Below are positions 795 through 3,480 of a stretch of 32,857 bases of DNA, piece by piece. Positions within the stretch are counted from its first letter, which is position 1. Each line of letters starts with the position of its first letter. Origin of the DNA: Streptococcus sanguinis. GTDB taxonomy: Bacteria > Bacillota > Bacilli > Lactobacillales > Streptococcaceae. Below the pieces are notes generated by a model, which had not been told where the DNA came from, did no database searches, and saw nothing but the letters and a program-made list of their open reading frames with translations. The translations under genes and the position numbers were made by a program. Location: contig NZ_RJMM01000001.1 in NCBI RefSeq assembly GCF_003943655.1, positions 17,567 to 50,423 of the forward strand, written 5' to 3'.

Positions 795-952
795 ATGGTG
801 GAAAAAATTTGCTAACATTGGTATTTCTACTTTTGATACTTCAAATTTAGCATGTTATCTATTTTGATAAAATCATTATTAGGAGCAACTGCCTCACCGC
901 CTTGTATCCGCTTTCGTATTTTGGTATAATAGTGATGAGCTCACTTGGGTAA
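795..952 (+). pseudogene. Possible decayed small membrane-protein frame
   Basis: AAGGAG at 783-788 precedes ATG 795, but the frame stops after six codons (TAA 813-815). Shifting one frame at about 807-810 gives a strongly hydrophobic run (LLTLVFLLLILQI). That frame then meets TAG and continues to TAA 950-952. A good ribosome binding site in front of a membrane-type segment broken by one shift and one stop suggests a degraded gene. The stretch is short, and its end overlaps a strong promoter (902-930), so the similarity to a gene may be chance. No family is recognised. Confidence 0.25.
902..930 (+). promoter_or_regulatory. Strong sigma-A promoter for the small-peptide unit
   Basis: The -35 is TTGTAT (902-907), the spacer is 17 bp, and the -10 is a perfect TATAAT (925-930). 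Transcription should start near 937, giving a leader of about 105 nt before the 44-codon ORF at 1042 and ending at the terminator at 1162-1188. The transcript would therefore be about 250 nt and independent of rel. Confidence 0.7.
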
Positions 953-994
953 GTCAGAAAGGAAAATAAAACGGAAAAAATCAGACTGCCTAAG
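944..994 (+). promoter_or_regulatory. Structured 5' leader hairpin of the small-peptide mRNA
   Basis: CTTGGGTAAGTC (944-955) can pair with GACTGCCTAAG (984-994) over 11 positions, with two G-U pairs and one bulged A, around a purine-rich loop. The stem begins about 7 nt after the predicted start of transcription and lies 30 nt before the ribosome binding site (GGAGAGGAGG, 1026-1035). It could control message stability or translation. The pairing is visible in the sequence; the function is inferred. Confidence 0.45.
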
Positions 995-1041
995 CTGGGA
1001 AGCGTATCTGCATTTTGCCTGATAAGGAGAGGAGGTTCGCC

Positions 1042-1176
1042 ATGACTATGTCTGCCTTATTTGAGTTGTTTGTCGCCCTTTTGGGTGTGGCATCTACTTG
1101 CTACCTTGTCTACGCTTATTGTCAATTTATCAAGGAAGAAGTTCATCACTTTCTTCACCACAACCCGCCCGTTTAA
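1042..1176 (+). CDS. 44-residue hydrophobic peptide, candidate type I toxin-like small membrane protein
   Basis: This ORF was found by reading the gap before rel. GGAGAGGAGG (1026-1035) lies six bases before ATG 1042; a second ATG at 1048 is also possible. The peptide has one hydrophobic segment of about 20 residues (LFELFVALLGVASTC and on), two cysteines (20 and 27), then a charged and histidine-rich tail (IKEEVHHFLHH) ending NPPV. It sits in its own unit with a strong promoter, a structured leader and an immediate terminator; the TAA (1174-1176) lies in the terminator loop. Size, single membrane span, polar tail and an isolated structured mRNA match type I toxins such as Fst or the TxpA group, but I see no clear family motif and no convincing antisense promoter. 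A small regulatory membrane protein is the alternative. Confidence 0.6.
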   Translation: MTMSALFELFVALLGVASTCYLVYAYCQFIKEEVHHFLHHNPPV

Positions 1177-1189
1177 GGCGGGTTTTTAT
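1162..1189 (+). terminator. Rho-independent terminator of the small-peptide unit
   Basis: AACCCGCC (1162-1169) pairs with GGCGGGTT (1177-1184) around a 7-nt loop, followed by a U-rich tail (TTTTTAT). The loop contains the stop codon of the 44-codon ORF, so the stem is partly coding sequence. There is no T-run on the other strand. Confidence 0.85.
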
Positions 1190-1260: not shown

Positions 1261-3480
1261 ATGCCAAAAGAAGTGAATTTGACGGGCGATCAGGTATTGG
1301 CCCTTACGAGAAAATATCTGGCTGCGGAGGATGTGGCCTTTATACAGAAAGCTTTGATCTATGCGATTGACTGTCACAGTGGGCAGTTTCGCAGGTCAGG
1401 TGAGCCTTATATCGTGCATCCTATTCAGGTGGCAGGGATTTTGGCCAAGCTCAAGCTGGACGCGGTAACGGTTGCTTGCGGCTTTCTACATGATGTGGTC
1501 GAGGATACCCGTGCGACGCTGGATGATTTGGAAAGAGAGTTTGGAACTGATGTGCGCGTGATCGTAGATGGGGTTACCAAGCTGGGTAAGGTCAAGTACA
1601 AATCCCACGAGGAGCAGCTGGCAGAAAATCACCGTAAGATGCTGATGGCCATGTCGGAGGATATCCGGGTTATTTTGGTCAAACTGGCAGACCGTCTCCA
1701 CAATATGCGGACGCTCAAGCATCTGCGCAAGGATAAGCAGGAGCGGATTTCTCGAGAAACAATGGAAATTTACGCACCCTTGGCTCATCGCCTGGGGATT
1801 TCCAGTGTCAAGTGGGAGCTGGAAGATTTGTCTTTCCGTTATCTCAATGAAGTGGAATTTTACAAAATTTCCCACATGATGAAGGAGAAGCGTCGGGAGC
1901 GTGAAGCTCTGGTAGAAGAGGTGGTTCAGAAGATTGAGACCTATGCTGGCGAGCGCAATCTGCACGGTAAGATTTATGGCCGGCCCAAGCATATCTACTC
2001 GATCTATCGCAAGATGCAGGACAAGAAGAAGCGTTTTGATGAGATTTATGATTTAATCGCCATTCGCTGTATCTTGGATACTCAAAGTGATGTTTATGCT
2101 ATGCTGGGCTACATTCATGAGCTTTGGCGGCCGATGCCGGGGCGGTTCAAGGATTATATTGCCAACCGCAAGGCCAATGGTTACCAGTCTATTCATACGA
2201 CCGTTTATGGACCCAAAGGTCCGATTGAGTTTCAGATTCGGACTAAGGAAATGCATGAGGTCGCTGAGTATGGGGTTGCGGCTCACTGGGCTTACAAGAA
2301 AGGTGTCAAGGGACAGGTAGACAGCAAAGAATCAGCCATCGGGATGAACTGGATCAAGGAGTTGATGGAGCTGCAAGACCAGTCTAACAATGCTAAGGAT
2401 TTCGTTGACTCAGTTAAGGAGAGCTATCTGGCTGAGGAAATTTACGTTTTCACACCAGATGGAGCGGTGCGTTCTCTGCCTAAGGACTCGGGTCCCATTG
2501 ACTTTGCCTATGAGATCCATACCAAGGTCGGTGAGAAAGCCACAGGAGCCAAGGTCAATGGCCGCATGGTGCCCCTGACAACCAAGCTCAGGACAGGGGA
2601 TCAGGTGGAAATCATCACCAATGCTAACTCCTTCGGACCGAGCCGCGACTGGCTCAATATTGTCAAGACCAGCAAGGCCAGAAATAAAATCCGTCAGTTC
2701 TTTAAGAATCAAGACAAGGAGCTGTCTATTTCCAAAGGCCGAGAGCTCTTGCAGGCTCAATTTCAGGAGCATGGCTATGTAGCTAATAAGTACATGGACA
2801 AGAAGCACATGGAAGAAGTGCTGCAGAAGACCAGCTATAAGACTGAAGAGGCGCTTTTTGCAGCGATTGGCTTCGGTGAGATTGGTGCCATTAGTATTTT
2901 CAACCGTTTGACAGAAAAAGAGCGCCGTGAGGAAGAACGGGCCAAGGCCAGAGCAGAAGCGGAGGAATTGGTTAAGGGCGGCGAGGTCAAGGTCGAAAAC
3001 AAAAAAGACACCCTCAAGGTTAAGCACGAAGGTGGTGTGGTTATTCAGGGGGCGTCTGGTCTCCTCATCCGGATTGCCAAATGCTGTAACCCTGTACCGG
3101 GTGATGATATTGTTGGCTATATTACCAAAGGACGCGGTGTAGCCATTCACCGGCAGGACTGCATGAATCTCAAGGCTCAGGAAAATTACGAGCAGCGACT
3201 GATTGATGTGGAATGGGAAGACAACAACACGACCAAAGAGTACACGGCTCACATTGATATATACGGTCTCAACCGCTCTGGCCTCCTCAACGATGTGTTG
3301 CAGGTTCTGTCCAATACCACCAAAAATATCTCAACAGTCAATGCTCAGCCAACCAAGGATATGAAATTTGCTAATATCCACGTTTCTTTTGGTATTGCTA
3401 ATCTGTCCATGCTGACGACGGTGGTGGATAAGATCAAGAGCGTGCCGGAGGTCTACTCGGTCAAGCGGACTAATGGCTGA
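1261..3480 (+). CDS. rel: Bifunctional (p)ppGpp synthetase/hydrolase Rel (RSH family)
   Basis: This 739-residue cytoplasmic enzyme makes and degrades (p)ppGpp in the stringent response. The order is that of a long RSH protein: an N-terminal HD hydrolase domain (about 25-200, with IVHP at His53 and the HD pair His77-Asp78 in FLHDVVED), a synthetase domain (about 230-370, with GRFKDYIANRKANGYQSIH), TGS (about 395-455), a helical region, a cysteine motif (IAKCCNPVPGD near 610) and a C-terminal ACT domain (about 665-739). The intact HD motif predicts active hydrolase. Length is typical for streptococcal RelA/Rel. A GGAGAG ribosome binding site precedes ATG 1261. dtd follows 56 bp downstream on the same strand, a common Firmicute arrangement, and the two probably share a transcript. 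Confidence 0.97.
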   Translation: MPKEVNLTGDQVLALTRKYLAAEDVAFIQKALIYAIDCHSGQFRRSGEPYIVHPIQVAGILAKLKLDAVTVACGFLHDVVEDTRATLDDLEREFGTDVRVIVDGVTKLGKVKYKSHEEQLAENHRKMLMAMSEDIRVILVKLADRLHNMRTLKHLRKDKQERISRETMEIYAPLAHRLGISSVKWELEDLSFRYLNEVEFYKISHMMKEKRREREALVEEVVQKIETYAGERNLHGKIYGRPKHIYSIYRKMQDKKKRFDEIYDLIAIRCILDTQSDVYAMLGYIHELWRPMPGRFKDYIANRKANGYQSIHTTVYGPKGPIEFQIRTKEMHEVAEYGVAAHWAYKKGVKGQVDSKESAIGMNWIKELMELQDQSNNAKDFVDSVKESYLAEEIYVFTPDGAVRSLPKDSGPIDFAYEIHTKVGEKATGAKVNGRMVPLTTKLRTGDQVEIITNANSFGPSRDWLNIVKTSKARNKIRQFFKNQDKELSISKGRELLQAQFQEHGYVANKYMDKKHMEEVLQKTSYKTEEALFAAIGFGEIGAISIFNRLTEKERREEERAKARAEAEELVKGGEVKVENKKDTLKVKHEGGVVIQGASGLLIRIAKCCNPVPGDDIVGYITKGRGVAIHRQDCMNLKAQENYEQRLIDVEWEDNNTTKEYTAHIDIYGLNRSGLLNDVLQVLSNTTKNISTVNAQPTKDMKFANIHVSFGIANLSMLTTVVDKIKSVPEVYSVKRTNG

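Follow-up and report, generated by a model that had tools for sequence, protein, structure and literature searches.

Among described systems, the nearest in principle to the element reported here appears, by analogy, to be STAB-SD of cry3A in Bacillus thuringiensis, an mRNA 5' element that resembles a Shine-Dalgarno (SD) sequence and is complementary to 16S rRNA; binding of the 30S subunit to it blocks RNase J and gives the message a longer half-life (PMC4113751; this and the other papers cited here are drawn on in part). Type I toxins of the Fst and Ldr families are marked by a PXXXG motif in the membrane span, an antisense RNA promoter that converges across a bidirectional terminator, and direct repeats common to the toxin and antitoxin RNAs (PMC7472228). 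Streptococcal intergenic regions also hold the YjbJ motif, with two hairpins; the fthC motif, with three hairpins, a terminator, a putative AUG, and a purine-rich stretch said to be SD-like; and the idnO motif, which lies between manX and idnO (PMC11109978). Here, we analyzed a 32,857-nucleotide stretch (the window) of the Streptococcus sanguinis contig NZ_RJMM01000001.1, in which an initial annotation, made from the letters alone, had proposed a self-contained gene unit for a 44-residue membrane peptide directly upstream of rel. The predicted mRNA of this gene opens with a hairpin that the annotation had missed and that is the most informative part of the unit.

Like STAB-SD, this leader places an SD-like complement of 16S rRNA near the mRNA 5' end, in our case a predicted end deduced from the -10 box. 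Judged by sequence, the SD-like run does not appear to serve translation start: a start codon stands at SD spacing behind the loop in 1 of the 44 distinct hairpins collected below, and an upstream open reading frame (ORF) using the run was rejected on that count. The leader differs from STAB-SD in that its SD-like run sits in the loop of a covarying hairpin together with a second conserved half, and in that unrelated genes, many of them within a single genus, have it upstream. Of the parts expected in a riboswitch (an aptamer plus an expression platform), a single covarying hairpin was seen; with the YjbJ, fthC, and idnO motifs, the comparison was by description only.

The leader-RNA class appears in no catalogue searched. 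Rfam 15 returned no match at gathering score for the window and 12 leader loci, and the seven matches obtained with five loci at E up to 5 were all well below their gathering scores. Among open papers, we recognized no description of this leader motif or of the peptide gene; sequences inspected in them proved to be a cloning primer and a short Streptococcus mutans small RNA fragment that contains TAGAAAGGA and lacks the second loop half.

The leader hairpin and its recurrence

The hairpin occupies 944–994 on the forward strand, on which the other parts of the unit and rel also lie. Its stem pairs 944–955 with 984–994, leaving A951 bulged, and closes a loop at 956–983 that holds two conserved segments: AGAAAGGA (956–963), which complements the 3' tail of 16S rRNA, and CGGAAA (972–977), delimited in the alignment A6 described below. 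Among the aligned leaders of different clades, the stem is variable in sequence and the loop is conserved as UAGAAAGGA..AAA..CGGAAAC.AUA. The minimum free energy fold of 937–1000 had a z score of −2.76, with 4 of 200 shuffles as good, and in a set of test folds the window (−2.8) and the loci L208 (−2.5) and L225 (−3.2) lay well below their shuffles.

Covariation supports this structure. Among the nine sequences of the gene's own family, two-sided changes affect 7 of 11 stem pairs; the covariation score was 0.62, a value that 0 of 500 shuffles attained, with slid controls at or below 0.2. The model-fitted alignment A6 (50 hits, 44 of them distinct) scored 0.781 compared with 0.220 for shuffles and at most 0.289 for slid controls. 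The 12 sequences on which the hairpin-only covariance model R2 was trained showed two-sided changes in all 11 pairs. As a check on sequences new to R2, we aligned 24 of the 38 A6 hits outside its training set (near-duplicates omitted) with MAFFT and without structure; RNAalifold recovered the same stem, with compensatory changes in 7/7 pairs, although the check is not fully independent because these sequences had been chosen by a model containing this stem. We consider it very likely that the leader is a true conserved RNA element.

We then asked how widely the hairpin occurs, using covariance models whose E-values are rough. R1, the first model, was scanned over 284 Streptococcus genomes and matched 129 of them with the threshold set at E up to 1, mostly weakly, recovering the 24 intact members of the peptide-gene family, one decayed copy, and weak hits elsewhere. 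The same hairpin stood behind a -10 box and before other genes at four of five such loci viewed together (L159–L162 among L159–L163) and at L177, L182, and L183; the last three were the only ones of 20 further R1 regions to match the loop pattern in the intended sense, one more (L180) matching on a coding start and the other 16 not at all. R2 matched 79 of the 284 genomes at E up to 0.05, where about 14 were expected. At E <1e-3, it gave 60 matches against about 0.3 expected. All 24 intact family members and the decayed copy were among them; the other 35 lay elsewhere, and 28 of these 35 were outside its training set (some being near-identical to each other).

With the model R3 and a limit of E up to 0.01, an order-wide search of 395 genomes found matches in 55, compared with about 4 expected; 27 were Streptococcus and 28 lay outside the genus. 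The window match of R3 (943–995, 48.6 bits, E 1.9e-11) comes from a sequence in its training set. Twenty of the loci were viewed, six of them outside Streptococcus; of these six, L269 and L280 were convincing, whereas L272 fell on a start codon, L276 had no gene, L279 was unlike the class, and L277 was not located by the loop pattern; a Streptococcus hit of R3, L263, was not located by the pattern either. The leader hairpin therefore recurs in streptococci and in at least two other Lactobacillales genomes. In viral contigs, a strict DNA version of the loop pattern had no hits, which says little, as the pattern is stricter than the model.

Across the class, the hairpin nearly always sits just behind a -10 box. 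A -10-like hexamer (at least 5/6) lies within 60 nt upstream of all 44 distinct hairpins, compared with 33% of control stretches, and a perfect TATAAT in 26 of the 44, compared with 5%. The median distance from the -10 box to the stem is 12 nt, with two outliers at 33 and 42 nt. Because the -10 box lies just upstream, the hairpin is predicted to open the mRNA. The consensus of the loop over the 44 hairpins reads UAGAAAGGA-(0-2)-AAAAnnC-GGAAAC-D-AUAUU. At least 7 nt are complementary to the 3' tail of 16S rRNA in 41 of 44 loops, the mean loop–16S duplex energy is −11.0 kcal/mol compared with −6.2 kcal/mol for mononucleotide-shuffled loops, and 30 loops beat 95% of their own shuffles. Because the models themselves include the loop, such counts serve as a description of the class and not as proof of it. 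The sequence of the 16S tail was read in 3/3 related genomes.

Three observations concern hairpins and loop-like sequences of individual loci. At L217, L222, and L223, sequences resembling cre (catabolite) sites, such as TGAAAGCGATAACA, lie just upstream of the hairpin and overlap the start region of the leader. In L281, the spacer right after the 16S rRNA gene (1501–1545 of that locus) reads CTAAGGAAAAAACGGAAG, strikingly like the leader loop AAGGAAAAAACGGAA as found in L235; the likeness is weaker in cristatus-type and sanguinis-type copies (L282, L340, and L341) and is probably due to chance, but it could point to some factor recognizing the two sequences. A strong hairpin in L204 (genome G250) is followed for 360 nt by no ORF of at least 28 codons preceded by a ribosome-binding site (RBS), and it may belong to a free small RNA or serve a smaller ORF.

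The genes that follow the leader are unrelated to each other, and most encode small secreted or membrane proteins, among them some lactococcin-972 bacteriocins. Outside the peptide-gene family there are 39 distinct leaders; among the first ORFs behind them, 23 of 30 have a hydrophobic N-terminal stretch, compared with 20% of 487 control ORFs taken from random places of other loci. When 20 products were scanned against NCBIfam, four matched lactococcin-972 (TIGR01653; three over the cut-off and one below), two matched a bacteriocin-associated membrane protein family and a dimethylargininase family, respectively, both below the cut-off, and 14 matched nothing. A Pfam scan of 10 products gave DUF5626 and DUF2599 over the cut-off for one product each, the latter with a weak second hit, and a phospholipase A2 just below it; seven matched nothing at E up to 0.01. 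The remaining products are unknown secreted-looking proteins of ~100–220 residues and small hydrophobic peptides of ~37–72 residues. Outside Streptococcus, the leader precedes an 87-residue secreted-looking peptide with no family match (L269) and a lactococcin-972 protein (L280). In L208 and L214, the leader lies 192 and 326 nt, respectively, before a gene for a dimethylargininase-like enzyme, which among the products with family matches is the only clearly cytoplasmic one.

The 44-residue peptide gene and its signals

The peptide gene extends from the ATG at 1042 to the TAA at 1174–1176 and encodes MTMSALFELFVALLGVASTCYLVYAYCQFIKEEVHHFLHHNPPV, in which a single hydrophobic stretch spans approximately residues 9–25 (17-residue mean hydropathy of 2.00 from residue 9) and the C terminus is rich in histidine, in agreement with the 44-codon ORF, membrane span, and His-rich tail first described. 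An SD-preceded ORF of at least 44 codons also arose in 31 of 2000 mononucleotide shuffles of 783–1260, so the ORF alone is only moderate evidence, and conservation decides.

We therefore turned to related genomes, where the initial annotation had proposed to look for a conserved frame and an excess of silent changes; both were found. When 147 Streptococcus genomes were searched with the single sequence, 25 had a match at E up to 0.1; 15 of these matches were clear and 10 weak and partial. A profile search of all 284 genomes at E up to 0.05 gave 30 matches: 24 at E <1e-20, five that were weak and partial, and one decayed copy (L112, in genome G188) with a degraded -10 box and a broken frame. 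By sequence type, the 24 homologues comprise 10 sanguinis-like, nine cristatus-like, and five anginosus/sinensis-like members; the 16 loci with named sources come from S. sanguinis, S. cristatus, S. sinensis HKU4, S. anginosus J4206, and Streptococcus sp. Marseille-P6264. Twenty columns, including three histidines, are invariant among 12 aligned homologues.

The ratio of nonsynonymous to synonymous substitution rates (dN/dS) was 0.16–0.24 when the window gene was compared with representatives of three other clades, one from each. The remaining clade pairs gave 0.10–0.32, one of them with saturated dS, and a value of 1.97 between two near-identical cristatus sequences derives from ~4 changes and is uninformative. 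Over 11 sequences and 32 codons, position 3 varied in 23 codons, position 1 in 15, and position 2 in only six. The conserved frame under purifying selection, together with the one hydrophobic stretch, supports the proposal that this gene encodes a small membrane protein, and these sequence comparisons point to a real family of oral streptococci. In the window's own genome, the gene is single-copy, the next-best match to the peptide reaching only E 0.7. Scans of the peptide against NCBIfam at E up to 10 matched no family, the lactococcin-972 model TIGR01653 included, and a Pfam scan gave two matches to eukaryotic families, both below the cut-off. Plasmid and phage searches found no relatives at E up to 10.

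The expression signals largely bear out the first description, with one revision. The initial annotation had read a -35/-10 pair; the perfect TATAAT (925–930) stands, but the -35 element TTGTAT (902–907), 17 nt upstream of it, matches only 3/6 consensus positions, and a consensus scanner makes no promoter call here. The promoter (902–930) is instead of the extended -10 type (TGnTATAAT), with TGG at 922–924. Its TTTGGTATAAT is invariant across 15 aligned homologous loci; a homologous locus outside this set, L111, has ATGGTATAAT instead. From the -10 spacing, transcription is predicted to start near 937, which fits the proposed leader of ~105 nt (937–1041). The RBS TAAGGAGAGGAGG (1023–1035) is very strong, as had been noted, and is invariant in the 15 loci. 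The intrinsic terminator (1162–1184) has the described form, its stem (1162–1169/1177–1184) closing a 7-nt loop that contains the stop codon. It overlaps the last codons, and its sequence encodes the NPP of the peptide's HHNPP end; in cristatus copies, the peptide ends in HHGG or HHRG, and this terminator stem is absent.

Weighing the readings of the unit

The reading we prefer, although we hold it tentatively, is that we are dealing with an autonomous gene whose product is a small membrane peptide with a single span and whose mRNA opens with a new leader-RNA class that boosts or controls competition-type peptides. The specific mechanism is put forward with a similar degree of reserve. The loop's AGAAAGGA would pair with the 16S tail and hold a 30S subunit at the mRNA 5' end, where the subunit would shield the message from 5'-to-3' decay in a STAB-SD-like manner; alternatively, the 30S subunit might wait at the leader before loading at the strong true RBS, so that the mRNA is primed rather than stabilized. 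The second loop half (CGGAAACnAUA) may add specific recognition, perhaps by a protein, and the 44-residue peptide would belong to a set of competition-type or membrane-active peptides under common expression control. Extended to the class, this becomes a proposal to which we give not quite even credence: the 5'-terminal leaders of Streptococcus and some other Lactobacillales may unite bacteriocins, secreted enzymes, and tiny membrane peptides in a hidden regulon, in which a decoy SD loop recruits the 30S subunit or an RNA-binding factor and coordinates post-transcriptional control of competition weapons, the 44-residue peptide being a new membrane-active member.

If the class is truly regulatory, it would provide a handle on the control of many orphan streptococcal bacteriocin-like genes, for some of which, the pneumococcal streptococcins A, C, and D, control is stated to be unclear (PMC11796350). 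The hairpin would also serve as a search tool for secreted peptides too small or too new for annotation, and it would add an instance in which an RNA loop at an mRNA end presents an SD-like sequence.

Several points weigh against the preferred reading. The transcript, its start site, and the protein are all predicted, and the action of the peptide in competition or on membranes is presumed. The hits were picked by models containing the loop and stem, and loop conservation, 16S complementarity, and pair counts are partly built in; false hits fell on start codons of other genes at L266, L268, and L272. Not every statistic for the stem stood out: in the nine-sequence family, 18 of 500 shuffles reached the two-sided pair count and 244 of 500 had as many pair types, and in A6 the two-sided pair count was unexceptional (162 of 500). 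Among the test folds, L232 was moderate (z −1.5), and L250 (0.35) and L246 (−0.35) were no better than shuffles.

On the side of ribosome binding, UAGAAAGG is nearly fixed, whereas the register of pairing would be free to drift if the run were simply an SD, and the CGGAAAC side of the loop is left unexplained by the 16S tail; two 16S copies were searched for nine complement words of this half and contained just one, the 6-mer TTTCCG. The 16S-tail pattern had no hit in the window's own draft assembly. As for the genes served, the strict RBS rule finds no ORF behind nine of the 39 leaders outside the family, although a looser rule does so for some of them. The non-secreted exceptions include the dimethylargininase-like enzyme and two ORFs classified by eye, one for an ABC transporter ATPase and the other an inserted one that is transposase-like. 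In the reverse test, 57 loci for lactococcin-972-like bacteriocins (streptococcins) were collected by protein family, and at E <1e-3 only 6 of them showed the leader immediately before the gene and on its strand; four of these are training sequences and two are not (L306 and L324, the latter being the same place as L280). The 44-residue peptide, for its part, has no match to the family model.

In a first alternative, possible but in our judgment rather doubtful, the hairpin is the site of a dedicated regulator that switches the peptide regulon, its resemblance to a 16S complement being secondary. Candidates for the regulator are a metabolite, a protein that binds RNA, and a small RNA acting in trans, of the kind represented by the CiaR-dependent small RNAs (csRNAs). 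Strong conservation of both loop halves around a stem free in sequence is typical of sequence-specific recognition, and streptococcal csRNAs resemble each other in their RBS-complementary regions, six being known in S. sanguinis SK36 (PMC8186281). However, the loop is SD-like in nearly all cases, and a non-systematic reading of the leaders noticed no shared terminator or SD-sequestering alternative fold.

A second alternative sees the peptide as a housekeeping accessory, either a partner in a membrane complex or a metal binder acting through its His-rich tail, with the leader only a booster shared by chance with secreted-peptide genes. The purifying selection, the three invariant histidines, the place upstream of rel common to the clades, and the lack of an NCBIfam match would all suit such a role. 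The patchy distribution (24 of 284 genomes, with decay in one more) and the fact that relatives of the leader mostly serve secreted or membrane proteins speak against it, and we consider it somewhat improbable.

The initial annotation had also considered a type I toxin of the Fst, TxpA, or Ldr groups, in which a 44-residue membrane toxin would be silenced by antisense RNA. The small single-span peptide, its predicted autonomous transcript, and a terminator overlapping the coding end do recall the Fst and Ldr systems. However, all 12 aligned homologues lack a proline ahead of the C-terminal NPP, and without a proline in the span there is no PXXXG motif. Within 902–1260, we found no direct repeat families of at least 8 nt, and five clade representatives showed no minus-strand promoter-like site of at least 9/12, a threshold that weaker promoters could escape. 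With the peptide matching no family and its gene single-copy and at the same chromosomal place across clades, a toxin is very unlikely, and this identity was set aside.

The rel neighborhood and upstream surroundings

The gene at 1261–3480 is rel, which we take to encode the RelA/SpoT-type (p)ppGpp synthetase/hydrolase. Conservation of the peptide gene's position had been put forward as a test, and rel lies directly behind the peptide gene in 17 of 24 genomes. In all 14 cristatus-, anginosus-, and sinensis-type genomes, it is downstream on the same strand within the fetched stretch, and the decayed copy also has rel behind it. Among the 10 sanguinis-type genomes, rel follows directly in three, 1.5–3.1 kb of other DNA intervenes in five, and in two rel was not found within the available stretch; one further sanguinis-like genome (G046), with a Rel segment 99% identical, is without the peptide gene. 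The rel neighborhood is thus old but not obligatory.

A promoter-like site of rel itself lies at 1207–1235 (9/12 match), and the anginosus- and cristatus-type loci resemble it in the sequence that precedes rel. Because of this site and the DNA intervening in half of the sanguinis-type genomes, the link to the stringent response that the annotation had called suggestive is unsupported in functional terms. That the unit is a leader peptide or attenuator of rel, as its shared place upstream of rel with a terminator between might suggest, is extremely improbable and was set aside, given the promoter-like site of rel, the intervening DNA, and the presence of the same leader before other genes elsewhere.

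In two other sanguinis-type genomes (L078 and L079), differing extra genes lie between the terminator of the peptide gene and rel, for example ORFs of 134 and 94 residues in one genome and, in the other, an ORF of 130 residues that begins with a hydrophobic stretch; the pattern suggests a site of repeated insertion. Upstream of the unit, the window holds a lipoprotein-like gene of 219 residues (123–779) with no family match over the cut-off; two anginosus-type loci (L070 and L097) have a different upstream gene there, of ~247 residues.
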